Virus record (IMG/VR): IMGVR_UViG_3300019458_000615
Coordinates: 1 to 33,826 of that record
Direction: 5' to 3' (one strand)
From: a virus
DNA: 33,826 nucleotides
Part shown: one piece after another, positions 1 through 33,826 of the stretch
Numbering within the stretch: the stretch's first letter is position 1
Layout of the letters: every line of letters starts with the position of its first letter
The notes under the pieces: generated by a model
Told to the model about the DNA's origin: nothing
The model's database searches: none
The model's input: the letters and a program-made list of their open reading frames with translations, nothing else
Made by a program: the position numbers and the translations under genes

Positions 1-1161
1 ATGCCGAGACAGCGAACCGGATACGTCTACTTCGACAAACAGCGCAAGGCTTGGACAGCGCGTGTGGATTACAAAGATGAGTTGGGCAAGCCGCGCTTGC
101 TCAGGCGCCAGGTTGCAAACAAAACCGAAGGGAAGTTGCTGCTCAAACAATTGCTGCGCGAGATTGAGCAGCATGGCTCTCAAGTCATTGACGGCGCCAA
201 GCTCACGTTCGCCAAGCTCGCCGACATTTACCGCGATGAAAAGCTGATCGAGCCGGTCTATGAAGACGGCGTTCGCGTCGCGGGCCTTCGTTCGTTTCAG
301 GGTCAACGGCGCAGACTGGTAAACCTGACGGAATACTTCGGCGCGAAGCGTGTCGTCAACATCACCTACGGCGACATCCAAAAGTTCAAGCTCAAACGCC
401 TGAAAGACCCCAACAAGCGCGACGCTCAACAAGGTGTCGAAAGCACGCTGAAGGTCGCCACAGTCAACCGCGAATTACAACTGCTGCGCAACGTTCTCAA
501 TTTCGCCAAGCGCAAGGGCTGGATCGTTCGCAACCCGTTCGAGCTTGGCGAACCGCTCATCAGCATGGCGGCTGAGAAGAAACGAGACCGGGTTATCACC
601 AGAGACGAAGAGGCGCGGTTACTCACGGCTTGCGACACGAAACAGCGCGCGCATCTGAAGCCGATCCTGATCTGCGCGATGGACACCGGTATGCGCAAAG
701 GCGAGATTCTAAAACTGAAGTGGAAAGATATTGATCTGGACAGCGGCGTTATCAGACTCCGCGCCACAACCACAAAGACTGAACAATCAAGAACTGTGGG
801 CGTCACACGGCGGCTTCAGGCCGAACTACAGCGCCTGTGGGGCATCTCCCCGCGTAATCCTGACGGAAGCGTCTTCGGCATCGCCTGTGATGTCAAACGC
901 GCTTTCGCGGCGGCGTGCAAAGACGCGGGGCTAAGTGATCTGCGCTTCCACGATCTGCGCCACGCCGCCACGACGCGCCTAGTCGAGACGGGAGCTTTGC
1001 ACACGGCGGAAGCGATGAAGATCACTGGCCATCGTCAGCAGACCACGTTTGAACGATACGTGAACCCACAGGATGAAACCGCGCGTCGAGGCGCTGAAGC
1101 TCTTGACGAATGGTTACAGGGTGAGAACGTCGAACCGGAAAGACCGGAGTTGGTCAATTGA
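1..1161 (+). CDS. int: Tyrosine recombinase (phage integrase), 386 aa
   Basis: Site-specific recombinase that would integrate and, with a directionality factor, excise the phage. The catalytic set of the tyrosine recombinase family is visible: Arg232 in the GMRKGE context, His317 and Arg320 in FHDLRH, His344 in TGHR, and the nucleophile Tyr353 in FERYV. Residues 1-60 fit a basic arm-binding domain, about 65-180 the SAM-like core-binding domain, and about 195-365 the catalytic domain. Length is normal for the family. The window begins on its ATG, so its ribosome site and promoter lie outside. It is followed by an intergenic region with repeated sites and then an excisionase-like gene, the usual temperate-phage order. 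Confidence 0.96.
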   Translation: MPRQRTGYVYFDKQRKAWTARVDYKDELGKPRLLRRQVANKTEGKLLLKQLLREIEQHGSQVIDGAKLTFAKLADIYRDEKLIEPVYEDGVRVAGLRSFQGQRRRLVNLTEYFGAKRVVNITYGDIQKFKLKRLKDPNKRDAQQGVESTLKVATVNRELQLLRNVLNFAKRKGWIVRNPFELGEPLISMAAEKKRDRVITRDEEARLLTACDTKQRAHLKPILICAMDTGMRKGEILKLKWKDIDLDSGVIRLRATTTKTEQSRTVGVTRRLQAELQRLWGISPRNPDGSVFGIACDVKRAFAAACKDAGLSDLRFHDLRHAATTRLVETGALHTAEAMKITGHRQQTTFERYVNPQDETARRGAEALDEWLQGENVEPERPELVN

Positions 1162-1855: not shown

Positions 1856-2073
1856 GCATCAGCAACCCCAAAAAACTACTATCCTGCGCCGCGTGCGAGC
1901 ACGAAATCGTCGCCGCGTGGGGCTGGCTCTTCGTTGAGGGCCGCGCGCTCGATCTGTGCGCGAAGTGCGCTCGCACGATCCGGTACGCGCCGGACTCCGA
2001 ACGAGCGCGGCGGATTGCCCGAATCATTGAACAACATCACCCCTATCTACTGCGGAGCAAAGAGGCGGCGTAA
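1852..2073 (+). CDS. Small zinc-ribbon protein, 73 aa
   Basis: Short protein with two Cys pairs, CAAC near residues 12-15 and CAKC near 36-39, spaced as in a zinc ribbon. A basic helical tail (SERARRIARIIEQHH) follows. It starts with GTG in a GTGA overlap with the preceding stop and ends in a TAATG overlap with the primase-helicase gene, so the three genes look translationally coupled. Family not recognised. A DNA- or protein-binding accessory role in replication is inferred from context. Confidence 0.65.
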   Translation: MSISNPKKLLSCAACEHEIVAAWGWLFVEGRALDLCAKCARTIRYAPDSERARRIARIIEQHHPYLLRSKEAA

Positions 2074-5000
2074 TGAACGCAATATCTCGTTTCCCTGCCT
2101 TTCCATTTCCTGGCCTTTGGCGCAATGCCAACGGTGATTATCCCGTGATCATCATCGGCGATCTTGGCGACGCCAGCGGGCGCCATTTCGTCAAGGCGCA
2201 AGGCTCCGACGCTGGCATTCCGGCGGATGAGGTCAGCCCGCTTAATGGCTGTCGATTCGGTGGCGGCGGGATTCTCTTTCCCGATTTGCCAGCCATTCGC
2301 CGCAATCTGCCTGAACTGGTCGCGCTTGATCACTGGATTATTTGGCGCGCCGTTTGGACGGAGCAAAAGGGCGGCAAATGCAAGTACAACAAAGTGCCGA
2401 TCAACCCGCGCACTCTGGGCAACGCGCAATCAAACAACCCTGAGACGTGGGCGTCGTTTGAAGAGGCTGGCAGAGCATATCTGGCGAATGCTGATCAGTT
2501 CGCGGGCATTGGCTTCATGCTGGACGCGCCAGACACTGCGGCGGCTGAGTCGCTCAATCTCTGCGGCTTCGACTTCGACGGCGTCTTTGGCGCCGGGGAT
2601 GACGCCTCGCCCGCTTCCCTGCCCAATTTCGAGCGCGGCGTACTCGAAACTCTCAGCACCTATACAGAGATTTCGCCAACAGGCACGGGCTTGCGCGCGT
2701 TCGGGCGTGGACTGTTGCCGCCGCAGGGCCGCAAGAAAGGTAATTTCGAGTGCTATAACTCAGGGCGCTTTCTGACAGTCACCGGCCATTCACTCCACGA
2801 CGCGCCTTTGCCGATGCGCGAGGTTCAGGACGCAATCAATGTGATCCATCCGCAGATTTTTGGAGCGAAGTCTAAAGCAAAGCCCGAACCGAAAGTGAAA
2901 GCAGCGCCAACGAAGGCCACAGCGTCAGGTTTCAAGCTCGCCAGCAATGGCCGCTCCGCACTGTTGACCGACGATCAACTGTTATTCAAAGCCTTCAACT
3001 CGCAAGACGGCGCCGACATTCGGAAGCTCTGGAATGGTAACTGGTCAGCTTACGACGACGGCGAAGAAGGCCAATCGCGCGCTGACCTGGCGCTCGCCAA
3101 TTATTTGGTGTTCTACGCGAATGGCGACAAGACGCAGGTTGACCGGCTCTTTCGTCAGTCGGCGCTTTACCGTGACAAGTGGGATGAAAAACGTGGGCCG
3201 ATTACTTACGGCGAACTGACGATCAGCCGCGCGCTTGAGGGTCGAAGCGAAGTTGATTACTACAAGCCCGGCTACACGCCGAATTCCGCATCCGACCGCG
3301 AAGCGAATTCAAACGGTCTGGATGAATCGCGGGCTATTGCCGCCGAATTGCCCGGATTGCTGGAAAACAACCTGAAGGAGCTATACGCGCCGCGCATCAT
3401 GCACGCGCTGGCCGACCTGAAATACAACTCGGCTGGCGATTGGGCGATTGCCGCGAACACACTCAAACAACGTGGTCAACTGCGCGCTGTCGAGGCTGAA
3501 ATCAAGAAACAATGTCCACAACCGCGCAGGCCGCTGCGCTTGGTCAGCGACGACGATCAGCCAGAACTCCAATCCGTGGACGATTCCTTGACCGGCGCGC
3601 CGCTCGAAGGGCTGTCAGTTCCGTACTCTTATAGTCTCAGCTATCAATCGCTCGACAAAATCGTGGACACAACGGACGGGCCGAAGCCAATCAGGATTGC
3701 GCCGGGGCCGGTGCTGATAGTAGGCCGAACGCTCAGCATCGGTGATTATCCGACCGAAGGCTACCGCGTCGCGTGGTTTCGATCTGGCGAAGGCTGGCGA
3801 TCAATTGTTGTAGACGCCGGAGACATCTTCGACAAATCCCGCATCCTGACGCTGATTGACCGAGGGTTCCCTGTCACGTCTTCAACGGCGAAAGACCTAG
3901 TTGACTTCTTTGCGGCTTTCGCGGCGGTGAATCGCCAGCGATTGCCGGTTGTCCGCACAACGTCACAAATGGGCTGGCAAGGCAAGCGCGGCGAACTGGG
4001 CGTCGTCGCTGGCCGCGTCTTCATCAAGCCGGACGGAGAAGTAGTCGAGACTTCGGACTTGAATGACCCCGAAGGCTGGCGTGAAGACCTGATTCAGTAT
4101 CGCGCGTTCAGTCCGGGTGAAGAGCAATTGGTTGCGGGCTACAAACGCGAAGGCAGTCTTGAGCAGTGGAAAGAAGCTGTGGCTGTCATCAAAGATTACT
4201 CAATGCCGCGCGTCGCGTTCTACGCTTCGTTCACTTCGGTTATGTTGATGCTGCTCAAATGCCCGAATTTCACGGTCGACTTGGCGGGACTCACCAGCAA
4301 AGGCAAAACGACCAGCCAGATGATTGCGGCGTCTGTCTGGGGCGGCGTTGATGAGCGCGGCAATGAATCAAACCTCCATTCGTGGGACTCAACGAAAGTT
4401 GGCGCTGAGCGACTATCAGCCGTGATCAACCATCTTCCAACCATCCTCAACGACACCAGCCGCGCGCCGAAGCCCGAAGTGGTCAAACAGATGCTCTATC
4501 AAGTCGAAGAGGGCAAGGGCCGAACTCGCGGAACGAGGACGGGAATCGCCACGACTCCGAACTGGCATACGGTGATGATTTCGTCAGGCGAGCGCCGCAT
4601 CACAGACTTTGCGCCCGAAGGCGGCGGCGTGATCAATCGGGTGATCCAACTCTACGGGGCGCCGTTCGGCGACCGCAATGAGGAATTGGTCGTGAAGCTT
4701 CGCGGCGAACTGCAAGACCATCATGGCCACGCCGGAATTGAATTCGCGCGCTGGGTGATCCTCAACAAAGACCAGAAGGCCGCCAGCGGCAAAACAAATC
4801 TTGAAGAATGGCGCGAAGAGTACAAGCGCGAACGCCAGGCGTACATCAGAACCGCCGAAAGTGGCTCCGACGCTTCGCGGTTGGCCGAATTCGCGGCGGC
4901 GTTGAAAGTCACCGCCGGGCTTGTGCATCAGGCGCTCGATCTGGAATGGGAGTTTGCCGACCCGCTGGCCAATCTCTGGGGAGCGATCAGCGAAGGAGCG

Positions 5001-5405
5001 AAAGACCCTCTCGGCGCAGCAAGGGCGTTGGATCATCTGCTGACAATCGCCGCGACCAGACCTACCCAATTCTATGGCCGCCATCTTCTACACGACGACA
5101 GGCGCACCCCGAAGGAACCGGCGGGCGGTTGGTTTGGTGTGTGGGATGAGGGCGACGATTACAAATTTATCGCTTTCTCTCCGGTGCGACTGCGCGATGT
5201 ACTCACCGCGCTGGGGCTGGATTATCTCGCCATCATTGAACAGTGGCGCAAGCACGGCTGGCTCGACGTTGCGCCAGGCCGTAAGGATTTCAAAAAACAG
5301 AAAGGGATGAACGGTGACAAGGTGTGGCTGTACGTCATCAACCGCGCGGCGATCAGCGAACTCGCAACACTGATGGGCGGCGGCGACGAAAGGGGTGACG
5401 AATGA
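2073..5405 (+). CDS. Primase-polymerase fused to DUF927-type helicase, 1110 aa
   Basis: Large replication protein. The N-terminal part resembles NrS-1-type archaeo-eukaryotic primase-polymerases: WIIWR at residue 88, a KVPINP stretch, a GIGFML segment, and the acidic DFD at Asp167-Asp169, likely metal ligands. Residues about 300-375, ending in RLFRQSALYRDKWDEKRG, match the helix-bundle region that follows the polymerase domain in NrS-1-like proteins. From about 530 on it looks like a DUF927 phage or plasmid ATPase, with Walker A GLTSKGKT at 739-746 (Lys745) and a candidate Walker B ILND at 791-794. It would prime, and possibly extend, and unwind at the origin. The ATG overlaps the preceding TAA. 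No separate DNA polymerase was seen. Confidence 0.85.
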   Translation: MNAISRFPAFPFPGLWRNANGDYPVIIIGDLGDASGRHFVKAQGSDAGIPADEVSPLNGCRFGGGGILFPDLPAIRRNLPELVALDHWIIWRAVWTEQKGGKCKYNKVPINPRTLGNAQSNNPETWASFEEAGRAYLANADQFAGIGFMLDAPDTAAAESLNLCGFDFDGVFGAGDDASPASLPNFERGVLETLSTYTEISPTGTGLRAFGRGLLPPQGRKKGNFECYNSGRFLTVTGHSLHDAPLPMREVQDAINVIHPQIFGAKSKAKPEPKVKAAPTKATASGFKLASNGRSALLTDDQLLFKAFNSQDGADIRKLWNGNWSAYDDGEEGQSRADLALANYLVFYANGDKTQVDRLFRQSALYRDKWDEKRGPITYGELTISRALEGRSEVDYYKPGYTPNSASDREANSNGLDESRAIAAELPGLLENNLKELYAPRIMHALADLKYNSAGDWAIAANTLKQRGQLRAVEAEIKKQCPQPRRPLRLVSDDDQPELQSVDDSLTGAPLEGLSVPYSYSLSYQSLDKIVDTTDGPKPIRIAPGPVLIVGRTLSIGDYPTEGYRVAWFRSGEGWRSIVVDAGDIFDKSRILTLIDRGFPVTSSTAKDLVDFFAAFAAVNRQRLPVVRTTSQMGWQGKRGELGVVAGRVFIKPDGEVVETSDLNDPEGWREDLIQYRAFSPGEEQLVAGYKREGSLEQWKEAVAVIKDYSMPRVAFYASFTSVMLMLLKCPNFTVDLAGLTSKGKTTSQMIAASVWGGVDERGNESNLHSWDSTKVGAERLSAVINHLPTILNDTSRAPKPEVVKQMLYQVEEGKGRTRGTRTGIATTPNWHTVMISSGERRITDFAPEGGGVINRVIQLYGAPFGDRNEELVVKLRGELQDHHGHAGIEFARWVILNKDQKAASGKTNLEEWREEYKRERQAYIRTAESGSDASRLAEFAAALKVTAGLVHQALDLEWEFADPLANLWGAISEGAKDPLGAARALDHLLTIAATRPTQFYGRHLLHDDRRTPKEPAGGWFGVWDEGDDYKFIAFSPVRLRDVLTALGLDYLAIIEQWRKHGWLDVAPGRKDFKKQKGMNGDKVWLYVINRAAISELATLMGGGDERGDE

Positions 5406-6401: not shown

Positions 6402-6803
6402 ATGCAGTGGAAGGAAATGTATCCGAAGGAGCATTTGACCGTTGACGATCTAGGCAAGAAACAGGTGACGGTGGAAATCGCGTCAGTCTACAAAACGACC
6501 GTCAAAGTCAAAGGCAAGCCCGTTGACGAATGGCGGGTGAAATTCACCGGCGCGAAGAAATATCTTCGGCTCAACGCTTCATTGGCTGAAGAGATTGGCG
6601 CAGCGACGGGGACAACCGACTCACAGGCCGCTGTCGGCAAGCGTGTCACGCTGTTTGCCGGGCCGCGCACGGCTTACGGCGAAACGCGCATGTGCGTTTG
6701 CGTCAAGGCCGCGCCGAACGCGCAACAACCAACCGAACAACCGGAACCGATGCCGGAAACAAGCAACCAATCCGAACAACCTGAAAGTGAGGTAACAGAA
6801 TGA
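6402..6803 (+). CDS. Phage protein, possibly OB-fold-like, 133 aa
   Basis: The first 100 residues are beta-rich with alternating strands (QVTVEIASVYKTTV, WRVKFTGAKKYLRLN, GKRVTLFAGPRTAYG, TRMCVCVKAAP). The last 30 are Gln/Pro/Glu-rich and acidic. Similar short proteins sit next to SSB genes in many phages and have been thought to bind single-stranded DNA; that role is inferred here. AAAGGA lies before the ATG, and the stop overlaps the SSB start (ATGA). Confidence 0.68.
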   Translation: MQWKEMYPKEHLTVDDLGKKQVTVEIASVYKTTVKVKGKPVDEWRVKFTGAKKYLRLNASLAEEIGAATGTTDSQAAVGKRVTLFAGPRTAYGETRMCVCVKAAPNAQQPTEQPEPMPETSNQSEQPESEVTE

Positions 6804-7249
6804 GTTTCAATAAAATCATTATCGTCGGGTATCTCGGTGCCGACCCTCAATTGAAATACACGCCGCAAGGCACGGCTCTTTGCAACTTCTCCGTCGCCAC
6901 GACTGAGAAGCGAAAGAACCGGGAAAGCGAACAGGAAGACGTGACGACCTGGTTTCGCGTGACAGCGTGGGGACGGCAAGCCGAAGCCATCAATCAGTAC
7001 TTCGCCAAAGGCTCATTGATCTACGTCGAAGGGCGCTTGAGGATCGAAGAATACACGAGCCGCGACGGGGAGCAACGATTCTCCGCTGAAGTCAACATGA
7101 GCGGTTTCGAGTTTGTCGGCAAGGCTGGCCAGGGCGAAAGCGAAACGGCGAAGCCGAAGGCCAAAGCGAAGGCGGCCAGCGCCTTTGACGATGACGATGA
7201 CAGAAGCGCCGGCGCCGCCGAACCCAGTGATGACGACATCCCCTTCTAA
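6800..7249 (+). CDS. ssb: Single-stranded DNA-binding protein, 149 aa
   Basis: Classic bacterial-type SSB. The OB-fold spans about residues 1-110 (FNKIIIVGYLGADPQLKYTPQG, WFRVTAWGRQAEAINQYFAKGSLIYVEGRL). A Lys/Ala-rich linker follows, then an acidic tail ending DDDIPF, the protein-interaction tip. It would coat single strands during phage replication and recruit partner enzymes. The start overlaps the preceding gene by four bases and is preceded by GAGG. Confidence 0.96.
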   Translation: MSFNKIIIVGYLGADPQLKYTPQGTALCNFSVATTEKRKNRESEQEDVTTWFRVTAWGRQAEAINQYFAKGSLIYVEGRLRIEEYTSRDGEQRFSAEVNMSGFEFVGKAGQGESETAKPKAKAKAASAFDDDDDRSAGAAEPSDDDIPF

Positions 7250-8446: not shown

Positions 8447-10367
8447 AACCGTTGAACAACCCTGCATCGCTCTCGACTACCTTGAGCGCGCGTCGGCTGA
8501 TGCGGAGCGCGTGAAGCCCGAAATTACGCAGTGGCGCCGTGATCCCGACGGATACATCTCGCGCCGGTTCATCGCGCTGAGTGAGTGGGATTTTCCGGCT
8601 TATGCGGCGGGAAATATCAAGATTCAAAACAAAGTCGGCAGGCTGGTTTACTTCAACTTCAACCGCGTTCAGCGTCAATTGTGGAAATGGTTTCTGGAAG
8701 ACCTGGCGGCGGGCCGTCCGATTCGCTGGTACATCCTGAAGGCGCGTCAAATGGGCGTGTCAACCTGGATTCTGGCGCTTTTCTATTGGCTCACTTCGAT
8801 GCGCCCGAATCGAAACGCTTTGATCACCGCGCACGATGAAGCGTCAACCCAGAATTTCAACTCTCGCATTCGCTCGATCCACGCGGAGTCTCATCCGCTC
8901 TTGAAGTCGCAAACGATCCTGGAACGACGCGACGTGATCCAGTTCGGGAATAAAACGACGGAACGGCAAAAGGGCGCCGGGGCCGGACTCGATAGCCGCT
9001 TGATCTTCTCGACGGCGCAGCGCGGAGAGCTGGGCCGGTCGTACAACTTCCACGCCGTCTTGCTTTCTGAGTTTGCGATCTGGCCGGAACTGGGCATTGA
9101 CGTGGCGTCACAGATGGTCGCGCTCAATCAAACCATCGCCGAACTGCCGGGCACGATCGTGATACTTGAGACGACGGCGAAGGGCGAAAATGCCGCGACT
9201 GAGATGTACCGCGACCAGTCAAACGGCTACCGGAAGATTTTCATCACTTGGGTCGCGTTCGACGATTACCGCTCACCGATGCGGCGCGGCGAAAAGCTTG
9301 AGGACATCTGCACAACCGACGAAGTGGGCGGCAGGCCAACGCGCTACGGGAACGAAGTCGAAGAAGCGCGATTGATCGAAGACGCCTTGCGCATCTGGTA
9401 TGCCGAAGACATCAAGGCCGCGACGGACGCCGATGAATGGATGCGCGCAGAGGTTCAGGCGCGGCTCAACTGGCGACGGCAAACGATAGACAAAAAATGT
9501 CTGGGCAATGTCCAACAGTTCCGCAAGGAATATCCGACGATTGCGGCTCACGCCTTCGCGTCCACGTCGCGGGTTATCTTCGATCAGCATTCAGTCAACT
9601 TGATGCGCGAACATCTGGCCGCTGAAGCTCTGCCGGCGCGCCGCTTTCATTACGATCACAACCCGGAAGAGACGGACGCAAACAAAAAGTTTCAGCTTTC
9701 GCCGTTCGGCCAGGTTCACGTCTACAAGATGCCGGAAGCCGGGCAAACCTACGTGATGGCGGGCGACCCTGGAATGGGCATTCCGAACTCAGGCGACCCG
9801 TCCGCGCTGATTGTGTTGGCCGTTCCCGACCTGGAAGAAGTCGCCAGCTTCAATCAAATCATCACCCCGGACAAATTCGCGGAACTGGCTTTCTACCTGG
9901 GGCGAATCTACAACACCGCGCTGCTCGGCATTGAAAACAACGAACGCGGCGGCTACGCGGCAAACCTGATTCTGTCGAAGCAGATGCACTATCCGCGACT
10001 GTATTACCGCTTCGATCCCTTCGACAAGAAAGCGACGGCAAAGCCCGGCTTCAACACAACCGACACAAACAAATCTGTGATGGTCTCGGCTACGCAGCAA
10101 ACCATCCGTGATCACGAAATCTTGCTCAGAACCCCCGCGCTACTCGAACAGCTTGACCATTACGTTTTGCTCCCGAACGGGACAATGGGCGGCGCGCCGG
10201 GATGGAATGACGATCTTATTTCCGCGCTGCTCATCGCCGTTCATCTCTCGACAAAGATTCACATGTACGCGCAACCGCCGGAGAGCGCGCCGAAAGGCTC
10301 TTTCGCTTGGCACGCGCAGAGGCACGCCGAACGCCAGAAACCGGGAATGTTTGGCTACAAACGCTGA
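8439..10367 (+). CDS. terL: Terminase large subunit, 642 aa
   Basis: DNA packaging motor with ATPase and nuclease domains. Walker A is a terminase variant, KARQMGVST at 101-109. A Walker B-like hydrophobic strand ends in acid at VLLSEF (Glu211), and a coupling-type ETT motif follows in VILETTAKGEN. The RNase H-like nuclease domain starts near 440 with AGDP (Asp443), then IENNE (Glu499) and WNDD (Asp591, Asp592), the three metal-binding clusters. Length is at the upper end of the family. It would cut and translocate DNA through the portal encoded at 10604. Confidence 0.93.
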   Translation: MNETVEQPCIALDYLERASADAERVKPEITQWRRDPDGYISRRFIALSEWDFPAYAAGNIKIQNKVGRLVYFNFNRVQRQLWKWFLEDLAAGRPIRWYILKARQMGVSTWILALFYWLTSMRPNRNALITAHDEASTQNFNSRIRSIHAESHPLLKSQTILERRDVIQFGNKTTERQKGAGAGLDSRLIFSTAQRGELGRSYNFHAVLLSEFAIWPELGIDVASQMVALNQTIAELPGTIVILETTAKGENAATEMYRDQSNGYRKIFITWVAFDDYRSPMRRGEKLEDICTTDEVGGRPTRYGNEVEEARLIEDALRIWYAEDIKAATDADEWMRAEVQARLNWRRQTIDKKCLGNVQQFRKEYPTIAAHAFASTSRVIFDQHSVNLMREHLAAEALPARRFHYDHNPEETDANKKFQLSPFGQVHVYKMPEAGQTYVMAGDPGMGIPNSGDPSALIVLAVPDLEEVASFNQIITPDKFAELAFYLGRIYNTALLGIENNERGGYAANLILSKQMHYPRLYYRFDPFDKKATAKPGFNTTDTNKSVMVSATQQTIRDHEILLRTPALLEQLDHYVLLPNGTMGGAPGWNDDLISALLIAVHLSTKIHMYAQPPESAPKGSFAWHAQRHAERQKPGMFGYKR

Positions 10368-13139: not shown

Positions 13140-14192
13140 ATGGACAAAGTGACGATTCCAATTGAAGGCGCGAACGTCAGGCAGGGCGTGAACTACACGC
13201 GCGGGGCTGACGGCAAGATTATGCCAGCGGGCGGGCAGACCAGCCAAACAACGCCCGCGCCTCCCCTGCCCGATAGCCAGGCCGGACAGATGCAGGGCCA
13301 GGCCGTCGAGACGCAGCAACCGGCGCCGCCGCTTACACCGTTGCAGCAATTTCACCCCTCGCTTGATCCCTCGAAGGTCACGATGACTTTTGATGAAAAG
13401 ACCGGCAAGGTGCGCGTGATCCCGATTGCTGAGGCAGAAGCGGCGGCAGTTGAAGCGGAAGGTGAAACGGAAGATGTGGGCGATCTGCCGGACTTGGGAG
13501 AGCAACATTACAACATCCCCGGCGGGACACAGGACACGGCGCAGACAGCCACAGCAACCGCGCCAACCGCGGAAGCTCAGGCGCTGCGCGATCAGGTTGG
13601 CCAACTCACACAGATTGTCACGGCGATGGCTCAGGCTCAATTGAGCGGTAAGCCGTTGGCTGAAATGTTCGGAGCGCAACCGGCGCAACCCGCCGAACCG
13701 GACTTTTCGGAGCTTGACCTTTACGACCCGGCGCAACTCGCGGGCTTCATCAAGCAATCAGTTGGCGCAGCGATTCAAGGCGCGATTGCGCCACATCAAC
13801 AGACGATTGAAGGCGCGCGAAGGCGTCAGGAATACGACGCAACGGCGCTCAAGTTCGGCAACGAGCCAGACTTCAGACAGAAGTCAATCGCCGCCATTCA
13901 GCTTGTCGCCGATAACCCGGCTCTCACGATTGAGCAAGCCTACGGCGTCGTCAACAGGATTGCTCAGACTCTCACCCCGCAACTGACAGCAGCGGCGATA
14001 CCGCAACCCGCCGCTACACAAGCCACACGAACGCTGACAGCAGAGCAGGCGCAACAAAAGGCCGACCAAGCCAAGCGTTTGCCCGGCAACGGCGGAGTGC
14101 GAGGCGCAGGCAAACCGGAAATGCCCGCTCATATTCAAGGGCTGGGGCAGATGATTGCCTGGAACTTGCAGCAGGCTTCGCAAGGTAACTGA
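13140..14192 (+). CDS. Putative scaffolding protein, 350 aa
   Basis: Position directly before the major capsid gene and composition fit a scaffold. The N-terminal 130 residues are Pro/Gln/Ala/Glu-rich and low complexity. A helical, probably coiled segment (AEAQALRDQVGQLTQIVTAMAQAQL) follows, then an acidic patch, and the C-terminal half is helical and Gln/Ala-rich. It would guide capsid assembly and leave or be degraded before packaging. No protease was seen nearby. The identification rests on context. Confidence 0.68.
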   Translation: MDKVTIPIEGANVRQGVNYTRGADGKIMPAGGQTSQTTPAPPLPDSQAGQMQGQAVETQQPAPPLTPLQQFHPSLDPSKVTMTFDEKTGKVRVIPIAEAEAAAVEAEGETEDVGDLPDLGEQHYNIPGGTQDTAQTATATAPTAEAQALRDQVGQLTQIVTAMAQAQLSGKPLAEMFGAQPAQPAEPDFSELDLYDPAQLAGFIKQSVGAAIQGAIAPHQQTIEGARRRQEYDATALKFGNEPDFRQKSIAAIQLVADNPALTIEQAYGVVNRIAQTLTPQLTAAAIPQPAATQATRTLTAEQAQQKADQAKRLPGNGGVRGAGKPEMPAHIQGLGQMIAWNLQQASQGN

Positions 14193-14214
14193 GGCGAAGC
14201 GGGGAGAAGCCTAC

Positions 14215-15240
14215 ATGCTAGACACTTCTTTCAACCGTGTTGTGGCGACCAGTCTTAAAGGCTATTCGCGCGTCATCACGGATAACATCACCAGCAAACA
14301 GGTTCTGCTCTGGAAGCTTGGGCAGATGGGCGGCATCGAAACCCGACCCGGCGCATCTTCCATCGTCGAACCGATCATCTCAGCCGTCAACAGCACTGTG
14401 GCCAGCTACAGCGGCTTTGACCCGCTCAACACAACGGTTCAGAGCGGCATCGAGGCGGCGGAATATCCCTGGAAACAAGTGGCCGGAACGACAGGCTTGT
14501 CAGGAATCGAGAAGTTCAAAAACAGCGGCGCCGCGACTCAGGTAATCAACCTGTGGGACGCCGTCGGCAAACAGCTTTCGATTTCGATGCGCAAGTCAGT
14601 CAGCACAATGCTTTTCGGCGACGGAACGAGCAACGGCGGGAAGGACCTCGACGGCTTGCTTGTGGCCGTCGAAAACGGCGACGCCTGGTCAACCTATGGC
14701 CAGATTGATAGCAACGCTACGTCGAACTGGCGCAACCAGTTTATTGACGTGGCGGGCATTGACAGCGGCGGCAGTCCGGCGGCGGCGGAACTCGCTCTTT
14801 TCCGCGCCGGTATGACATCGCTTGTCAACGCTTGCACGGGCGGCGGCGACCGACCGCATCTCATCATCACCACGCAGACACTGCATGAGTATTGGGAGAA
14901 CAGAATCCTGATTCCCAATGAGCATTACGAGCGACGCGAAGCCGACGCCAACCTGGTTCAGAGCGGATGGGAAAACTTTATCTTCAAAGGCGTTCCCGTG
15001 TGCTGGGATGAAGATATGCTCCCGAACACTACCGGCGACGATGGGCAAGGGATGGTCGCGCTCAATCTCAATTATCTCAAATTCGTGATGGGCGAGGGCT
15101 ACGATTTCACGTTTACCGACCCGATCAGGCCGGACAACCAGGACGCTGAAACCGTGCAATGCCTGTTTTACGGCAACCTGATTCTGTCCAACCGGCGCCG
15201 TCAGGGCCGCGCGGACTTCGACACATCAAGCTCATCGTGA
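14215..15240 (+). CDS. Major capsid protein, 341 aa
   Basis: Shell protein, probably HK97-fold. Residues such as NITSKQVLLWKLGQMGG, the P-rich GASSIVEPI region, SISMRKSVSTMLFGDG, and the C-terminal YGNLILSNRRRQGRADF are typical of podovirus and siphovirus coat proteins of this class. The ATG at 14215 is preceded by GGGGAG (14201-14206); a longer frame from 14155 has a less convincing start within the scaffold gene. Scaffold before it and decoration protein after it support the role. The fold itself is inferred. Confidence 0.84.
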   Translation: MLDTSFNRVVATSLKGYSRVITDNITSKQVLLWKLGQMGGIETRPGASSIVEPIISAVNSTVASYSGFDPLNTTVQSGIEAAEYPWKQVAGTTGLSGIEKFKNSGAATQVINLWDAVGKQLSISMRKSVSTMLFGDGTSNGGKDLDGLLVAVENGDAWSTYGQIDSNATSNWRNQFIDVAGIDSGGSPAAAELALFRAGMTSLVNACTGGGDRPHLIITTQTLHEYWENRILIPNEHYERREADANLVQSGWENFIFKGVPVCWDEDMLPNTTGDDGQGMVALNLNYLKFVMGEGYDFTFTDPIRPDNQDAETVQCLFYGNLILSNRRRQGRADFDTSSSS

Positions 15241-15823: not shown

Positions 15824-17236
15824 ATGGAACAAATAAAACTCAACCTGATGGCGACGAAGCGGCAGGGCAACGCCGCGACTGAGTTTCTGAGAGGCGCAAA
15901 GGGCGTTATCCACGTTGGCGCAAGTTATGGCCAGGAACGCGACATCTACGCCGCAAAGGGCTTGCCCGTGATCTGGATAGAAGCGATTCCCACAGTGTTT
16001 GACCAGCTTCAGGTAAACATTGCGGGCTATCCGAATCAACGGGCGCTCAACTATTTGATAACCAACGCGGATGGTCTGACTTATGACTTCCACATCTCCA
16101 ATAACGACGGGTTCTCATCTTCGATCTTTGAACTGCAAGAGCATAAACGAGTCTGGCCGGATGTGAATTACACCGGCTCAATCAGACTGCAAAGCGCAAC
16201 GCTCAAGACCGTGATCGAACAACACGGCATTGACTTGAAGCTTTACGACACGCTGATTCTCGACGTTCAGGGCGCTGAGTTGCTGGCGCTTCACGGGCTG
16301 GGCGATCTGATTGACAAGTTTCGCTTCATTCGTTGCGAGGCGTCAGAAATCCCGCTCTATCAGCGCGGATGCGAGCTTAAAGACCTCGACGGCTTCTTTG
16401 CTGAACGAGATTTCAACCGAGCGCGGACGTGGAAGTACATTGACCCGAACAACGAGGCGGCAAGCTGTTTGTTCGAGGCGCTGTATGTGAAGAAATCGAA
16501 CGTTCCGCCAATCAAGCCGCTTTACATCCACGATCCACAGACGGACGCAAAGGCGCTTCACAAAGTGGCCGCCGTTACTACCGTTCCGCGCTTGGGCTTT
16601 CAGGCTCACGCGGGAACGCTCGAAAAGGCTTTCGCCGATCCACGAATCACGGTACTCAGAACGCGCGGCGTATTCTGGGAAATGGGCATACAGAACGGCA
16701 TAGACGCGCTCATCAAGCTGGGCTGTGACTATGTCATCACGGTTGATTATGACGGCATCTTTACCAACGAGGATGTCAAGGAATTGCTCAGGCTGATAGT
16801 GCGATACCCGGACGCCGACGCAATCGCCGCCTGGCAAGTGAAGCGCGGCAGTACAAAAAACGAGGTACTGGCCGGACTGCGAACGAGCGACGGCAAAATG
16901 GGCGCTGTCGTTTCCATTGAAGAGATGAAAGAGAAGGACTTGACCCGCGTTGATAACACGGTCTTCGGGCTGACGATCATCAAGACTGCGGCGATTTTGA
17001 AGATGAAGAAACCCTGGTTCATCAACACGCCGAACGCTGACGGCGATTGGCGCGAAGGCAAACACGATGCCGATAGTTACTTCTGGCACAAGTTCGGCGA
17101 AGCGGGCAACACGATCTATATGGCGAACCGTGTTCGCATCGGCCACTTGCAAGAGGTAGTGCTCTGGGTGGACGACGATTTCAATTTTTCAAAACAGGAA
17201 CTGTCTGAATTTTATAGAACGGGCAGACCGTTTTAA
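15824..17236 (+). CDS. FkbM-type methyltransferase fused to a GT-A glycosyltransferase, 470 aa
   Basis: Two enzymes in one chain. Residues about 25-225 fit the FkbM SAM-dependent methyltransferase family: motif I VIHVGAS (28-34), acidic Glu53 ending the next strand (WIEA), NNDGFSSS, and LDVQGAE (146-152). Residues about 240-450 resemble a GT-A glycosyltransferase, with TVDYDG carrying DxD at Asp308-Asp310 for metal and nucleotide sugar, and DADSYFWHKF plus His441 further on. It would add and O-methylate a sugar, on a virion protein or a host surface glycan. It sits between decoration and tail genes and is flanked by hairpins. No signal peptide or membrane segment was seen, so it should act in the cytoplasm. 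The substrate is unknown. Confidence 0.8.
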   Translation: MEQIKLNLMATKRQGNAATEFLRGAKGVIHVGASYGQERDIYAAKGLPVIWIEAIPTVFDQLQVNIAGYPNQRALNYLITNADGLTYDFHISNNDGFSSSIFELQEHKRVWPDVNYTGSIRLQSATLKTVIEQHGIDLKLYDTLILDVQGAELLALHGLGDLIDKFRFIRCEASEIPLYQRGCELKDLDGFFAERDFNRARTWKYIDPNNEAASCLFEALYVKKSNVPPIKPLYIHDPQTDAKALHKVAAVTTVPRLGFQAHAGTLEKAFADPRITVLRTRGVFWEMGIQNGIDALIKLGCDYVITVDYDGIFTNEDVKELLRLIVRYPDADAIAAWQVKRGSTKNEVLAGLRTSDGKMGAVVSIEEMKEKDLTRVDNTVFGLTIIKTAAILKMKKPWFINTPNADGDWREGKHDADSYFWHKFGEAGNTIYMANRVRIGHLQEVVLWVDDDFNFSKQELSEFYRTGRPF

Positions 17237-29509: not shown

Positions 29510-29927
29510 GTTGTTACCCGTTGTTCCGCGATCTGCAAGCAGCTTTATTGTTACCGGAAGGGCGAAAACAGGCCATTTTCTCTAATAAACAGGCTGTTTT
29601 CTCTAATGAAATTGTTACTTGTTACCCTGTTGTTACCCTCGTTGTTACCACTTAAAGCGTTTGGGCGCAGCAGTTTAGGCCAAAGGTAACAAGGGTAACA
29701 ACAAAAACAGTGCATGTATATTTTTGGGGAAATAAAAGCGGGCCGCGAAGAGGACATCCACATCAAAAACTAATCTGTCATGGTCGCGCTTATAATTCCC
29801 TTCCCACATGAGACACTGTTTTTGTTGTTACCGTTGTTACCTTTAATATAAATATATCTATTTATTATATTTAAGTGGTAACAACAAAGGTAACAACAGG
29901 GTAACAACACGAAATGGTATTGTTACC
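29510..29927. repeat. GTTGTTACC iteron array around an AT-rich core, candidate replication origin
   Basis: Twelve copies of the core GTTACC are visible on one strand or the other. Forward copies (last six bases) are at 29513, 29550, 29621, 29632, 29644, 29827, 29836 and 29922. Inverted copies are at 29685, 29694, 29877, 29889 and 29900, giving thirteen when all ends are counted, most as the full 9-mer GTTGTTACC. Two forward and three inverted copies face each other across 29842-29876, a 35-base run almost purely A and T. Inward-facing iterons beside a melting region are the layout of iteron-controlled origins. Assignment as origin is inferred; no classical DnaA box is convincing. Confidence 0.66.
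29566..29607. repeat. Two tandem 21-bp repeats
   Basis: Each unit is AAACAGGC, two variable bases, then TTTTCTCTAAT. The units occupy 29566-29586 and 29587-29607 head to tail and agree at 19 of 21 positions. A 21-bp period is two helical turns, so bound proteins would lie on the same face, as in plasmid iterons. They sit among the GTTGTTACC copies. Confidence 0.7.
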
Positions 29928-30237: not shown

Positions 30238-30576
30238 CTATTCGATCGGCTTTGGGCTGTCAGATGAGAGCGTATTGGCTAGGTGACGAAGATAGGCCAT
30301 TAACCCGAACATGGCGCTGAAGATGGCGCTGGCGACGGCGGTCAACAGCCAGGCGCATCCGCGCAGTCCGATGATGATGTAGTTGTAGGCGTCGCCTCCG
30401 ACGATCTTTGTGTTGTCGTCGAAAGAATTATAGGTGTAGGCCACTTTCAACCCGTACCAGGCAAGCCCGGCGGTGAGGAATGCGAGGATGACAGATAGGA
30501 TGATCAGTTCGGCAGGCGCGTTCGGCGTATCGGGTTTTCCGCGTTCCACGTTGACTTCAATAGGTGTTGTGTTCAT
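30238..30576 (-). CDS. Two-span membrane protein, 112 aa
   Basis: Hydrophobic spans at about residues 24-46 (LIILSVILAFLTAGLAWYGL) and 66-94 (YIIIGLRGCAWLLTAVASAI). The polar N-terminus is Pro/Glu-rich and the loop between the spans is acidic. AAGGA (30585-30589) lies eight bases before the ATG. Last gene of the leftward block, separated from the others by a terminator at 30747-30771, so it needs its own promoter, which was not identified. No family recognised. Possible roles are exclusion of other phages or holin-like activity. Confidence 0.66.
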   Translation of the reverse strand: MNTTPIEVNVERGKPDTPNAPAELIILSVILAFLTAGLAWYGLKVAYTYNSFDDNTKIVGGDAYNYIIIGLRGCAWLLTAVASAIFSAMFGLMAYLRHLANTLSSDSPKPIE

Positions 30577-30746
30577 ACAGGGAGTCCTTGAGACGACAAT
30601 AATGATTGATTCGGATCAGGGCCGGGGACAGACCGTTTGCGTGTGTCGGACACGGGGAGGCGCTGAGCCGGTGGGATGGTACTACTGAGCCGCGTGTGAA
30701 GTGAAGAAAAAGTTTTCTGCACCCGCCACAGATCGTGTGTCGAGCA

Positions 30747-30771
30747 AAAGAAAAGGCCGGCCCAGCCGGCC
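30747..30771 (-). terminator. Rho-independent terminator for the leftward genes
   Basis: GGCCGGC (30755-30761) and GCCGGCC (30765-30771) form a 7-bp stem with a 3-base loop. Read leftward, it is followed by TTTTCTTTT (from about 30754 down to 30746). TCTTTT on the other side makes it partly bidirectional. It would end transcription of the 30870-31488 genes. Confidence 0.75.
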
Positions 30772-30869
30772 TGGTCTTTTCGCAATTGGAGTTGCTAAAT
30801 GGCGGTTGGATGGTATCGCAGGACTGGCCGCGGGCGCAAGGCTTCGCGATCGGCAGGGAAGGGAAGCGT

Positions 30870-31103
30870 TCAGGCGGCGACCAGTTCAGGGAACTCGGCA
30901 AGCTCAGGCGTCGCTTCGGCCACGTCAATGAGCATTGCCAGGATGTGCGGTTCGAGGTCGAGAAGTTCGCGGGCGATCCGGCGGACTTGGTCTGGATTCT
31001 CTGCGTTATCAAGTAACGCTTGGGCCAGACCGCCGATGCGCAGCGGAGCGAGCGCGTTTAACTCGAATGGCGGCGCTGATGATTCGGAGAATGTAGTCTT
31101 CAT
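30870..31103 (-). CDS. Small acidic Leu/Ala-rich protein, 77 aa
   Basis: Helical, acidic protein (PDQVRRIARELLDLEPHILAMLIDVAEATPELAEFPELVAA) with no recognised family. AGAGGT (31111-31116) lies seven bases before the ATG. Its first 95 bases overlap the end of the upstream leftward gene in another frame, which is unusually long for an operon. The terminator at 30747-30771 lies downstream. Strong ribosome site and protein-like composition support it. Confidence 0.55.
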   Translation of the reverse strand: MKTTFSESSAPPFELNALAPLRIGGLAQALLDNAENPDQVRRIARELLDLEPHILAMLIDVAEATPELAEFPELVAA

Positions 31104-31488
31104 CGTAGTTACCTCTCAGGTGTAGCCATTCATCGGGCATGATGAACCCGATGTACTCATAGACTGGTTTGCGTCTTTCCAGTTTCAGCCCATTCCGGGC
31201 CTTTGTCCAGTAGAAATACTTGCCGGGCGCGGGCGGCAAATCGGGGTTGCGCGGGCGTCCGCGTTGGCCGGCTTTTGTCGGCTTTTTCGCTGGCTTTTTC
31301 GTCCGTTTTTTCGTTGGCGAAAAACCAGTGTTCGGGGCATTTTTCGCTGACTTTTCTGTTGGCGAAAAATCGGGATTTGTTACCGGTTCGGGCGTTGGCG
31401 AAAAATGCGTTGGCGAAAAATCGTTACTGCCTGCGTTTGAAGGAGTTGGATTATTCGCCAACGGCGGCGGCGGCGGATTATTCGCCAA
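31009..31488 (-). CDS. Possible DNA-binding protein with Pro/Lys-rich N-terminus, about 159 aa
   Basis: The second half looks like a real domain: RGRPRNPD (AT-hook-like core), then GKYFYWTKARNGLKLERRKPVYEYIGFIMPDEWLHLRG and a helical end. The first 75 residues are low complexity with several FSPT motifs and Lys/Pro runs, produced by the repeat array at 31313-31515 being read in this frame. No ATG start exists; TTG at 31488 is used here, but the frame stays open upstream into the end of the membrane-protein gene, so the true start is uncertain. A protein binding the repeats in its own gene is possible. Confidence 0.45.
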   Translation of the reverse strand: MANNPPPPPLANNPTPSNAGSNDFSPTHFSPTPEPVTNPDFSPTEKSAKNAPNTGFSPTKKRTKKPAKKPTKAGQRGRPRNPDLPPAPGKYFYWTKARNGLKLERRKPVYEYIGFIMPDEWLHLRGNYDEDYILRIISAAIRVKRARSAAHRRSGPSVT

Positions 31489-31515
31489 CGGTTGGCCGAG
31501 CGATTTTTCGCCAAC
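31313..31515. repeat. GTTGGCGAAAAAT repeat array, four direct then three inverted copies
   Basis: Forward copies start at 31313, 31358, 31394 and 31409. The last three are identical over GTTGGCGAAAAAT; the first matches 12 bases. Inverted copies end at 31462 and 31489 (ATTCGCCAAC form) and 31515 (ATTTTTCGCCAAC, exact). A degenerate inverted copy lies at 31339-31351. Read leftward the copies fall in different frames (FSPT, LANN, VGEKS), so conservation is at DNA level. The four-then-three inward arrangement resembles the other array at 29.5-29.9 kb. Confidence 0.7.
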
Positions 31516-31562
31516 GCATGCGGGCTGTGGCTTCGCTGTTTGCCCGGAACTCAGCGAAGCCG

Positions 31563-32411
31563 TTAAGGGAGTGTGGGCAGCCCGTTGTTGTAACGGTTCT
31601 GTCGGGGTTGCGGTGTCGCGGGCGCAGAGAAAGTGGGCGCAGGTGTGGACGTGTGCGACGCTGGCGGCAGAGTCACATCAAGTTCGCGCGCCAGTTCTTC
31701 ACGCAGTTTTGGATTTGAGATGCCGGCGACGAGGGCATATTTGCGCTCTTCGACTTGGACCAATTTTTCGACTTCAACGAGCATTTCCTGTTCGCGTTTT
31801 GTCGCTTCGCGGCGTCTATCGAGTTTGGCTTGATCCACGATGGATTGAGCGCGCATCAGTTCGAGTTGAGAGGCGGCTTTGGCGCGTCCGACCACGATAG
31901 CGGTATGGGCGGCGGCTTGTTTCAGCCGGATGATGTTTTTCGGATGCGTCATCGTGATAGCGATCACACTAAGGCCGAGCAGCGCCGCCAGAAGGGGGAA
32001 GGCGACAAGGCGCGAGTAGTCGCGGACAGTTTCCGACACGTCGGCGATCCCGATTAAATCGAGGATGGAAAACGTGCCGTGAACGAGCGCGAAGCCCATC
32101 AGGAGCGACCCGCACACACCGAGCGACAAGCGAAACCATCCGCTACTACGCGAGAAGTTATGTGTTGCGTAAAGGGCGATGGCTTCACACATGACGGCGG
32201 CGCATCCGGTCGCTTGTCCCCAGATGCCAGGAACAGCGTGAGCGAACAGCCTGTAGTTCAGGAAGGCGAGGCCGACGAAAAACACATACTTGAAAATCTG
32301 CGGCAAGGTCTCACTGGGGATTTTGAACTCCTTCGCCTCAGCCTCAAGTATTTGCTTGTCGGTATTTGCCTCCTCGTCGCGGTTCAGCCAGTTTTTGATC
32401 GAGTCAAGCAT
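31563..32411 (-). CDS. Four-span membrane protein with cytoplasmic coiled coil, 282 aa
   Basis: Spans at about residues 40-58, 66-84, 92-116 and 133-153. A long charged coiled coil (160-246: KAASQLELMRAQSIVDQAKLDRRREATKREQEMLVEVEKLVQVEERKY) and a Pro/Thr tail follow. AAGGAG (32418-32423) lies six bases before the ATG. The 4-TM-plus-helix layout recalls DUF2637-like plasmid or phage membrane proteins, but identity is not certain. It lies downstream of a terminator hairpin at 32437-32468, which may attenuate its expression. It could be a sensor, exclusion or anchoring protein. Confidence 0.7.
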   Translation of the reverse strand: MLDSIKNWLNRDEEANTDKQILEAEAKEFKIPSETLPQIFKYVFFVGLAFLNYRLFAHAVPGIWGQATGCAAVMCEAIALYATHNFSRSSGWFRLSLGVCGSLLMGFALVHGTFSILDLIGIADVSETVRDYSRLVAFPLLAALLGLSVIAITMTHPKNIIRLKQAAAHTAIVVGRAKAASQLELMRAQSIVDQAKLDRRREATKREQEMLVEVEKLVQVEERKYALVAGISNPKLREELARELDVTLPPASHTSTPAPTFSAPATPQPRQNRYNNGLPTLP

Positions 32412-32430
32412 TGTGCACTCCTTTTATAAA

Positions 32431-32468
32431 GCAAAAGCCGGAGCGATGGCGTCGCCGTTCGCTCCGGC
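32431..32468 (-). terminator. Terminator/attenuator hairpin between two leftward membrane genes
   Basis: GCCGGAGCGA (32437-32446) and TCGCTCCGGC (32459-32468) form a perfect 10-bp stem with a 12-base loop. Read leftward it is followed by TTTTGCTTT. The T-run is interrupted, so read-through is likely. The ribosome site of the 282-aa gene starts only about 13 bases further on, so the hairpin may act as an attenuator. Confidence 0.68.
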
Positions 32469-32489
32469 GCGAGTAGGGAAGTCAGGCGG

Positions 32490-32843
32490 CTACTTGTCCG
32501 CGCCTGCAATGTCAGCCAGCCGCTGGTTCAGGCGATCAATTCGGCGGTCCATCCAGCGGTCAATCGCGTGGACGGCCAGGACACTGGCGATTTGAAGAAG
32601 CCACATGGCGACAATGGCGGTGGTGACGTGGAGCACGGCATCAGCCGAAGCGTAGGCCGGCCAGTACATCAGCGCGAGCGCGTGAAGCCACCAGCCGCCG
32701 AAGGCTGCGGCCAGGCCAAAGATGACGGCTTCGGTCAGTCCGTAGCCGCGCGGCGTCAGTGGGGGCTTACCCGCGTTGATGTTCATCCGCATGTCTGTCA
32801 TTGCAGCGTTGGCGTCTTTGACTGCTTCTTTCAGGTTATCCAT
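32490..32843 (-). CDS. Two-span membrane protein, 117 aa
   Basis: Polar helical N-terminus (MDNLKEAVKDANAAMTDMRMN), spans at about residues 36-58 and 68-92, then a basic amphipathic C-terminal helix (DRWMDRRIDRLNQRLADIAG). The ATG at 32843 was preferred because the sequence before it reads less like protein. A longer start at 32957 is possible and would sit about five bases after a predicted leftward transcription start. First leftward gene, next to the shared control region at 32965-33074. No family recognised. Confidence 0.65.
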   Translation of the reverse strand: MDNLKEAVKDANAAMTDMRMNINAGKPPLTPRGYGLTEAVIFGLAAAFGGWWLHALALMYWPAYASADAVLHVTTAIVAMWLLQIASVLAVHAIDRWMDRRIDRLNQRLADIAGADK

Positions 32844-32964
32844 TGTCTTCGATTGCCTCGTTGTTAGGCCGATGTGATTGCGCGCGCATCGGCGGATACC
32901 ACTTGCTTCCACGCGCGAAAGCCAGAACGCGAAACTGTTGAAGGCATCGTTTGCCATCAGATAG

Positions 32965-33074
32965 TTGTAGTCTCTCCAAACATCTGGCCATTGTCAAGCA
33001 AATTACCCGTAGTGGCTACAAAAAACTCTTGACAGCGCCCGCCATTGACGTTAGTCTCTTGTAGACTCTACAAT
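32965..33074. promoter_or_regulatory. Divergent control region with three dyad operators
   Basis: Perfect dyad TTGTAG-ACT-CTACAA at 33059-33073, dyad GTAG-TGG-CTAC at 33009-33019, and TTGTAG-TCT-CTCCAA with one mismatch at 32965-32979. Centres lie at about 32972, 33014 and 33066, spaced 42 and 52 bases (four and five helical turns). The rightward promoter is TTGACG (33045-33050), 18 bases, TACAAT (33069-33074), whose -10 is inside a dyad. The leftward candidate is TTGACA (complement of 32992-32997) with GAGACT 17 bases on, overlapping the left dyad. Auto-regulation by the 33083 gene is inferred. Confidence 0.62.
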
Positions 33075-33082
33075 TCGCCCGT

Positions 33083-33322
33083 ATGGGCAGAAAGAAGGGA
33101 AAGCTTGTGACACCAAGACAATACGCGACGATGCACGGGGTTCCGTACACGACGGTGATGTATTGGCTTCAGAGCGGTAAAATCAAAACGGCGGTGAAAT
33201 ATCAGACGCCCACAGGCCATCATTGGGAATTGCCGGACGACACGCCCGCGCCGCCGAAGCTGCGACCTGGCCCGAAGCGGGGGGCGAAGAAAAGAGCGAA
33301 GCAGAAAAGCGGGCAGGACTGA
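33083..33322 (+). CDS. MerR/excisionase-type helix-turn-helix regulator, 79 aa
   Basis: Residues about 9-50 form a winged-helix DNA-binding unit: LVTPRQYATMHGVPYTTVMYWLQSGKIKTAV, then wing YQTPTGHHWELP. A basic AT-hook-like tail RPGPKRGAKKRAKQK follows. The -10 box ends at 33074, so transcription should begin within a few bases of the ATG at 33083, with no ribosome site, suggesting a leaderless message. The dyads at 33009 and 33059 are likely targets. It could be the lysis-lysogeny regulator or a second directionality factor. Confidence 0.74.
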   Translation: MGRKKGKLVTPRQYATMHGVPYTTVMYWLQSGKIKTAVKYQTPTGHHWELPDDTPAPPKLRPGPKRGAKKRAKQKSGQD

Positions 33323-33367
33323 TCAAAGGACCAAAAAGTTAGTGGTAGACAAAAGGGGAAGAAAATA

Positions 33368-33826
33368 ATGGGCGACTTACTGGCCGGCGGGTTTAGAGGC
33401 GGCGGCGACCGCAGAGCTTTCACTGATGACGATCTGGCGACACTGACTGAGTTGCTGACTCAAGGCGCAGTCGAGGTCGAGATTCACGGTGATGAGATCG
33501 TTCTGCTCCCGATAATGGCGGAGGCTGATTCGTATGCTGTGGTGAAGATAAAGCTGGCGAACGTGATTGCCGCGACGGTTGACCACATCAAGCAGGACGC
33601 CACTGATGGCGCTCACCAAGCATACTGTGAGTTATATGGACTCGCGGGGTTGCTCAGAGAGGGGGCGGTACTTGCCGAGGCGACGGCGCGGGCTGTTGCG
33701 CCGAACAGGTGGCGTGATATTGAGACGCCGTATTTCATTCGTTCGGAGGATCAGTTTGCGGACTGGCATATACCGAAGGATGGCGAAGAAGAAAACGGCG
33801 AGAGTCAGCATGACCAAGAGAATTAA
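33368..33826 (+). CDS. Hypothetical acidic protein, 152 aa
   Basis: Gly-rich start (MGDLLAGGFRGGGDRR), an acidic helix (FTDDDLATLTELLTQ), a beta strand VEVEIHGDEIVLLPI, a helical middle, and an acidic polar end (DGEEENGESQHDQEN). GGGGAAGA precedes the ATG. The stop is the last codon of the window. In a circular genome it would lie directly before int. No family recognised. Confidence 0.62.
   Translation: MGDLLAGGFRGGGDRRAFTDDDLATLTELLTQGAVEVEIHGDEIVLLPIMAEADSYAVVKIKLANVIAATVDHIKQDATDGAHQAYCELYGLAGLLREGAVLAEATARAVAPNRWRDIETPYFIRSEDQFADWHIPKDGEEENGESQHDQEN

Follow-up and report, generated by a model that had tools for sequence, protein, structure and literature searches.

An exactly mirrored iteron array as the probable SaPI/PICI-type replication origin of a phage encoding a primase-polymerase/DUF927 helicase

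Replication origins of the P4 and RepA types contain short iterons, located close to an AT-rich element, that are recognised by the initiator. For the PICIs, it is reported that rep together with ori replicates a plasmid autonomously, that the origins are located 3' of rep, and that, as of 2018, no other known bacterial replicon was organised in this manner (PMC6092414). The C-terminal domain of the SaPI Rep recognises iterons just downstream of rep, and Rep appears to bind its own origin as two hexamers, while the short iterons bound by Cch2 of SCCmec follow closely after its own gene (PMC7581432). The polymerase of phage NrS-1 begins at TTTGGTTA, and such sites were suggested by the authors to be a possible origin (PMC8718748, PMC7102993).

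The sequence analysed here (the window) is a complete IMG/VR virus record of 33,826 bp, which is classed as linear and contains terminase, portal, and major head genes. GTTACC was found 21 times in the record, against 5.2 copies expected and a maximum of 11 in 100 shuffles. Thirteen copies are located in 29513-29927 and eight in the remaining 33.4 kb, in agreement with the cluster of about a dozen copies, and with the coordinates, given by an initial annotation made from the sequence alone. The 9-mer GTTGTTACC occurs 17 times in the record with at most one mismatch (3.5 expected), and a record-wide check confined all nine exact copies to 29510-29927, which holds four one-mismatch copies as well and represents the strongest k-mer cluster of the record (log10 E about -28). 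The array occupies a region devoid of plausible genes, with the rightward structural genes, which end at 29050 and are followed by a 71-aa ORF extending to 29280, on one side and the leftward ORFs beginning at 30238 on the other. No Rfam family was matched and no tRNA was found in searches of the record. The genes to the right of the array (30238-33826) are without family matches, and the right end of the record therefore may not belong to the phage. A second repeat cluster is present in this region at 31262-31517, where GTTGGCGAA occurs in both orientations with seven exact copies in 350 bp (log10 E about -12). It lies partly within the leftward ORF 31009-31488, in which it is read as FSPT repeats, and partly outside, and includes a 19-bp perfect inverted repeat.

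Ten of the iterons form an exact mirror image, >11>12>[35]<9<[121]>9>[35]<12<11<, in which the mirrored coordinates each sum to 59526 and the dyad centre is at 29763 (Table 1). The gap series of 11, 12, 44, 9, 130, 9, 44, 12, and 11, together with the orientations, is thus an exact dyad, and it was reproduced in 23 of 200,000 shuffles of the same gaps and orientations. The initial annotation had correctly recognised that forward copies on one side of a nearly pure A/T segment (29842-29876) point towards inverted copies on the other and that a second set (29510-29702) has the same forward-then-inverted order, but it missed that each set encloses exactly 35 bp and that one set is the inverted copy of the other. 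When the left half was compared with the inverted right half, the iteron blocks agreed at 29 of 32 and 17 of 18 positions, the 35-bp spacers at 16 of 35, and the core halves at 23 of 61, indicating that the iterons and their distances are kept and the intervening sequence is not. Across the record, the lowest stability of any 35-bp window falls essentially at positions 29841-29875, the AT-only stretch having a stability of -0.88 per step against a record mean of -1.52 (sd 0.11), and the central core is also of below-average stability. Directly left of the dyad, two tandem 21-bp repeats (AAACAGGCCATTTTCTCTAAT, 90% identical) occupy 29566-29607 and may be a further binding site or what is left of a terminator.

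Table 1. Coordinates of the iteron array, the putative initiator, and other replication-related or mobility genes in the window
Feature	Position	Strand	Remarks
Tyrosine integrase	1-1161	+	
Putative initiator, 1110-aa primase-polymerase plus DUF927 (MCM-like) helicase	2073-5405	+	Homologous to SaPIbov1 Rep and SCCmec Cch
N-terminal primase-polymerase part	2307-3287	+	NrS-1-type HBD at ~3072-3254
DUF927 helicase domain	3669-4559	+	PF06048, E=5.5e-35
C-terminal HTH, HTH_56, Cch type	5118-5339	+	E=0.0019, below curated cut-off
Single-strand DNA-binding protein	6800-7249	+	PF00436, E=2.4e-34; likely replication partner
Two extra iterons outside the dyad	29510-29555	+	Forward, at 29510 and 29547
Left outer iteron cluster	29618-29649	+	Three forward iterons at 29618, 29629, 29641; spacing 11 and 12 bp
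Left 35-bp spacer	29650-29684		51% A+T
Left inner pair	29685-29702	-	Inverted iterons, 9-bp spacing
Central core	29703-29823		121 bp between the inner pairs, 59% A+T; holds dyad centre 29763
Right inner pair	29824-29841	+	Forward iterons, 9-bp spacing
Right 35-bp spacer	29842-29876		33 of 35 bases A/T; "core" of the initial annotation
Right outer iteron cluster	29877-29908	-	Three inverted iterons at 29877, 29889, 29900; spacing 12 and 11 bp
Extra iteron outside the dyad	29919-29927	+	Forward

A helicase profile built from the helicase of the 1110-aa protein and 19 relatives matched SaPIbov1 Rep (8tch; E 2.7e-78) and SCCmec Cch (5dgk; E 3e-50), in both cases over nearly the full length. The AlphaFold model of the protein (mean pLDDT 75) likewise had 5dgk and 8tch as its top fold matches (E ~1e-27), with the eukaryotic MCM family far behind, and a single-sequence model of its C-terminus was helix-turn-helix-like at low confidence (pLDDT 54). 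No close relatives of the protein were found in viral_contigs or genome_contigs, so the pairing of this protein with the GTTGTTACC iteron leans on distant relatives with identities of 17-33%. A Holliday-junction-resolvase-like protein is also encoded near the initiator gene. The putative initiator is a self-loading primase-helicase of the SaPIbov1/Cch type, and the plasmid-type iteron origin initially proposed is thus not supported. The suggested phage-plasmid lifestyle likewise finds no support: the phage carries an integrase, and searches of the tested ORFs (several of them without any family) against Pfam and PHROGs turned up neither partition genes nor a plasmid Rep gene. Among the virion structural genes, an FkbM-type methyltransferase (PF05050) is encoded at 15824-17236. 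The nearest named phages to the major head protein (14155-15240) are the Myxococcus phages Mx9 and Mx8 (31-34% identity), and one Bradyrhizobium and one Ruegeria phage are also among its matches.

The array was compared with those of 18 other DUF927 loci from a SaPI-like element, phages, and plasmids, a convenience sample that includes the near-duplicates L016 and L017. In 16 of the 18 loci, an iteron array begins 2-188 bp past the helicase stop codon. The two exceptions are L018, with a weak GGGAAC cluster 664 bp away, and L021, with other repeats near a second Rep gene. The iterons across these loci are AGTTCCC, AGTTACC, CGGTTACC, TTGTTACC, GGTTACA, GTTCCCC, TTGTGACA, GTTTCACC, TTGGTTCA, and GTGTATTCA, most of which have GTT(A/C)C in common. 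The layout is largely common as well: inner tandem pairs (8-9 bp) flank a core of 43 to ~120 bp, and an outer cluster with iterons at 11-13 bp follows 28-48 bp outward from the inner pair, the AT-rich part usually, but not always, being the middle. According to this layout, the two 35-bp segments of the window are spacers and 29703-29823 is the core. The AT-only core of the initial annotation is thus AT-rich and flanked by iterons as described, but it is one of two equal inner-to-outer spacers and does not lie at the centre of the array.

The closest structural relative of the phage, G001 (L006/L013), whose terminase is 62% identical, is without DUF927 and has no GTTACC cluster. It contains GCTACCA repeats in a 297-aa ORF (3683-4576), which may be its replication protein, and an exchange of the replication module appears to have taken place. 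Two isolate prophage contigs, L003 (2477-2830) and L004 (~9058-9420), each carry about 12 TGTTACC(G) iterons that lie within the 3' part of the coding sequence of another primase-helicase, which has Toprim-like and ATPase parts. In these contigs the GTTACC core goes together with a different helicase and is located in coding DNA. In a Geobacillus plasmid (L007, CP128451.1), the replication region apparently occurs twice, with CHC2 genes at 2496 and 9171 and DUF927 homology at two places, which suggests a tandem dimer or an assembly duplication.

The layout was also sought by geometry alone. The viral_contigs were scanned for two 9-bp-spaced GTAAC pairs facing two GTTAC pairs, in either polarity, across a core of 75-105 or 100-130 bp, and at least 119 and at least 120 stretches were detected, whereas motifs permuted without a change in composition yielded 12 and 14. 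Among the matches listed, two or more further copies were present nearby at 240 of 248 places. At 108 of 235 loci among the matches listed, the 3' end of a primase-helicase gene is no more than 500 bp away from the centre of the array, against 15.5 expected from random positions in the same loci, although the former count is somewhat generous because the primase-helicase set was defined from those same loci. Pfam analysis of 68 diverse adjacent proteins detected VapE-like (27), DUF5906 (27), DUF927 (20), HTH_56 (17), D5_N (7), and AAA_25 (6) domains. In the scan loci, the distance from the inner pair to the outer iterons is most often 34-39 or 46-48 bp, two maxima that differ by about one helical turn, and it is 37 in the window by the same measure. 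Some of the scan matches are not origins, since repeat-coding genes, collagen-like or glycine-rich, mimic the GTTAC geometry and were caught too (L028, L220, and similar loci).

The array, the homology of the putative initiator with both Cch and the Rep of SaPIbov1, and the recurrent location of such arrays next to primase-helicase genes together indicate that 29510-29927 is very probably the phage replication origin and of the SaPI/PICI type. In this respect the initial annotation, which had called a probable phage origin, is well supported by sequence comparison with the 18 DUF927 replicons and by the geometry-only scan. The best joint explanation, to which we assign a probability of roughly 0.86, is that the array is an origin read by the phage's own primase-polymerase/DUF927 helicase acting as two rings. 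The C-terminal HTH of the 2073-5405 protein would read the GTTGTTACC iterons, and two helicase rings, for which the exact mirror layout suggests a head-to-head arrangement, may load one on each half-origin, consisting of the inner 9-bp pair, the 35-bp spacer, and the outer 11/12-bp triple. The loaded rings would then melt the DNA and move apart, and the fused primase-polymerase would begin synthesis with the phage SSB. Analogy with the relatives suggests that first melting may take place in the central core 29703-29823, whereas the stability profile instead favours the right spacer 29842-29876.

The separation of the array from the initiator gene counts against the origin reading and is unlike 16 of the 18 DUF927 relatives. 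In the linear record, the array lies 24 kb downstream of the end of the initiator gene at 5405, beyond the structural genes, and is thus not immediately 3' of rep as in the SaPIbov1/PICI type. No iteron array was detected near 5405 by the k-mer cluster search of the record. If the record is circular and complete, the array would be located upstream of the integrase and ~6 kb upstream of the initiator gene. A candidate origin that is unlinked from the initiator gene is an unusual feature, and the position of the least stable DNA in an outer spacer is a second one.

Among the alternatives, it is conceivable, though we consider it doubtful, that 29842-29876 is the true unwinding core, as initially proposed, that only the right module is an origin, and that its left counterpart is either a degenerate or a regulatory copy. 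The base composition and minimal stability of this segment agree with such a reading, as does the published description of PICI origins as two iteron sets flanking an AT-rich segment (PMC6092414). However, both spacers are exactly 35 bp long though they agree at less than half of their bases, so it is the length and not the AT sequence that is kept, and in the relatives a segment of this length is found between the inner pair and the outer cluster and not in the middle of the origin.

Readings in which the array serves no helicase loading are far less probable. Inverted iteron clusters occur in partition sites and operators too, and weak promoter-like matches are present at 29695 and 29843, so the array could be an operator or partition site bound by a repressor or ParB. 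This is very unlikely, as the tested ORFs contained no recognisable ParA/ParB or large regulator and arrays of such geometry are found where primase-helicase genes end much more often than chance would predict. We regard as the least probable that the GTTGTTACC copies are primer-start recognition sites of the NrS-1-like primase-polymerase, a possibility raised by the NrS-1 HBD of the 1110-aa protein: similar arrays also accompany DUF927 helicases whose primases are unrelated or separate, e.g., of the CHC2 or DnaG types. The NrS-1 motif itself was rejected as the meaning of the repeats, with 0 exact copies in the window and one-mismatch copies at chance level, none of them in the array.

It is quite possible, though we would put it at somewhat short of even odds, that the plan of an outer cluster, a spacer of ~37 or ~47 bp, a 9-bp inner pair, a core, and the mirror image of these is a general loading platform for self-loading primase-helicases (DUF927/MCM-like, VapE-like, and D5) in phages, plasmids, and islands, largely independent of the iteron sequence, and that it is used here in trans, far from the initiator gene, with the melting site shifted into one outer spacer. 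The detection of the layout by geometry alone offers a means of finding origins in phages that have not been cultured, and the PICI-type layout is now found in complete phages and plasmids. The exact symmetry and the spacers kept in length but not in sequence offer a clean test of two-ring loading of an MCM-like helicase and of the melting site. If the origin assignment is right, the separation from the initiator gene implies that the usual linkage is not obligatory.

Compared with the known systems, the locus stands apart from the P4 and RepA types in that no P4-alpha or RepA/pi-type initiator was recognised in the record. It shares with the NrS-1 phage the related primase-polymerase and HBD domains, but the C-terminal helicase of NrS-1 belongs to another family and the NrS-1 start motif is absent here. 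The Cch of SCCmec is a DUF927 helicase of the same fold as the putative initiator; in contrast, SCC elements are not phages, and the origin of Cch2, a helicase of another family, has only three AAGTG iterons. The SaPIbov1 replicon and the PICIs have in common with the window a DUF927/MCM-like Rep with a C-terminal HTH (the HTH_56 match here being below the cut-off), two sets of short iterons around a putative unwinding region, and GTT-C-C iterons (AGTTCCC in the related element PT1028, GTTGTTACC here). Unlike in these elements, the candidate origin in the window is unlinked from rep, its AT-richest segment is an outer spacer, its ten iterons form an exact dyad, the Rep is fused to an NrS-1-like primase-polymerase, and the carrier is a phage with terminase, portal, and capsid genes and not a helper-dependent satellite. 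The phages and plasmids compared here do appear to have the PICI-like origin organisation, judging from their sequences. The same layout of outer cluster, spacer, inner pair, core, inner pair, spacer, and outer cluster is found in the Thermoanaerobacterium phage THSA-485A, the Faecalibacterium phage Epona, the Roseburia phage Jekyll, the Streptomyces plasmid pFP4, and the Geobacillus plasmid pSJEF4-2-2. In these DUF927 phages and plasmids, unlike in the window, the array directly follows the helicase gene and the core is usually the AT-rich part, while Jekyll and Ruminococcus phages carry nearly the same iteron, TTGTTACC, as the phage studied here.
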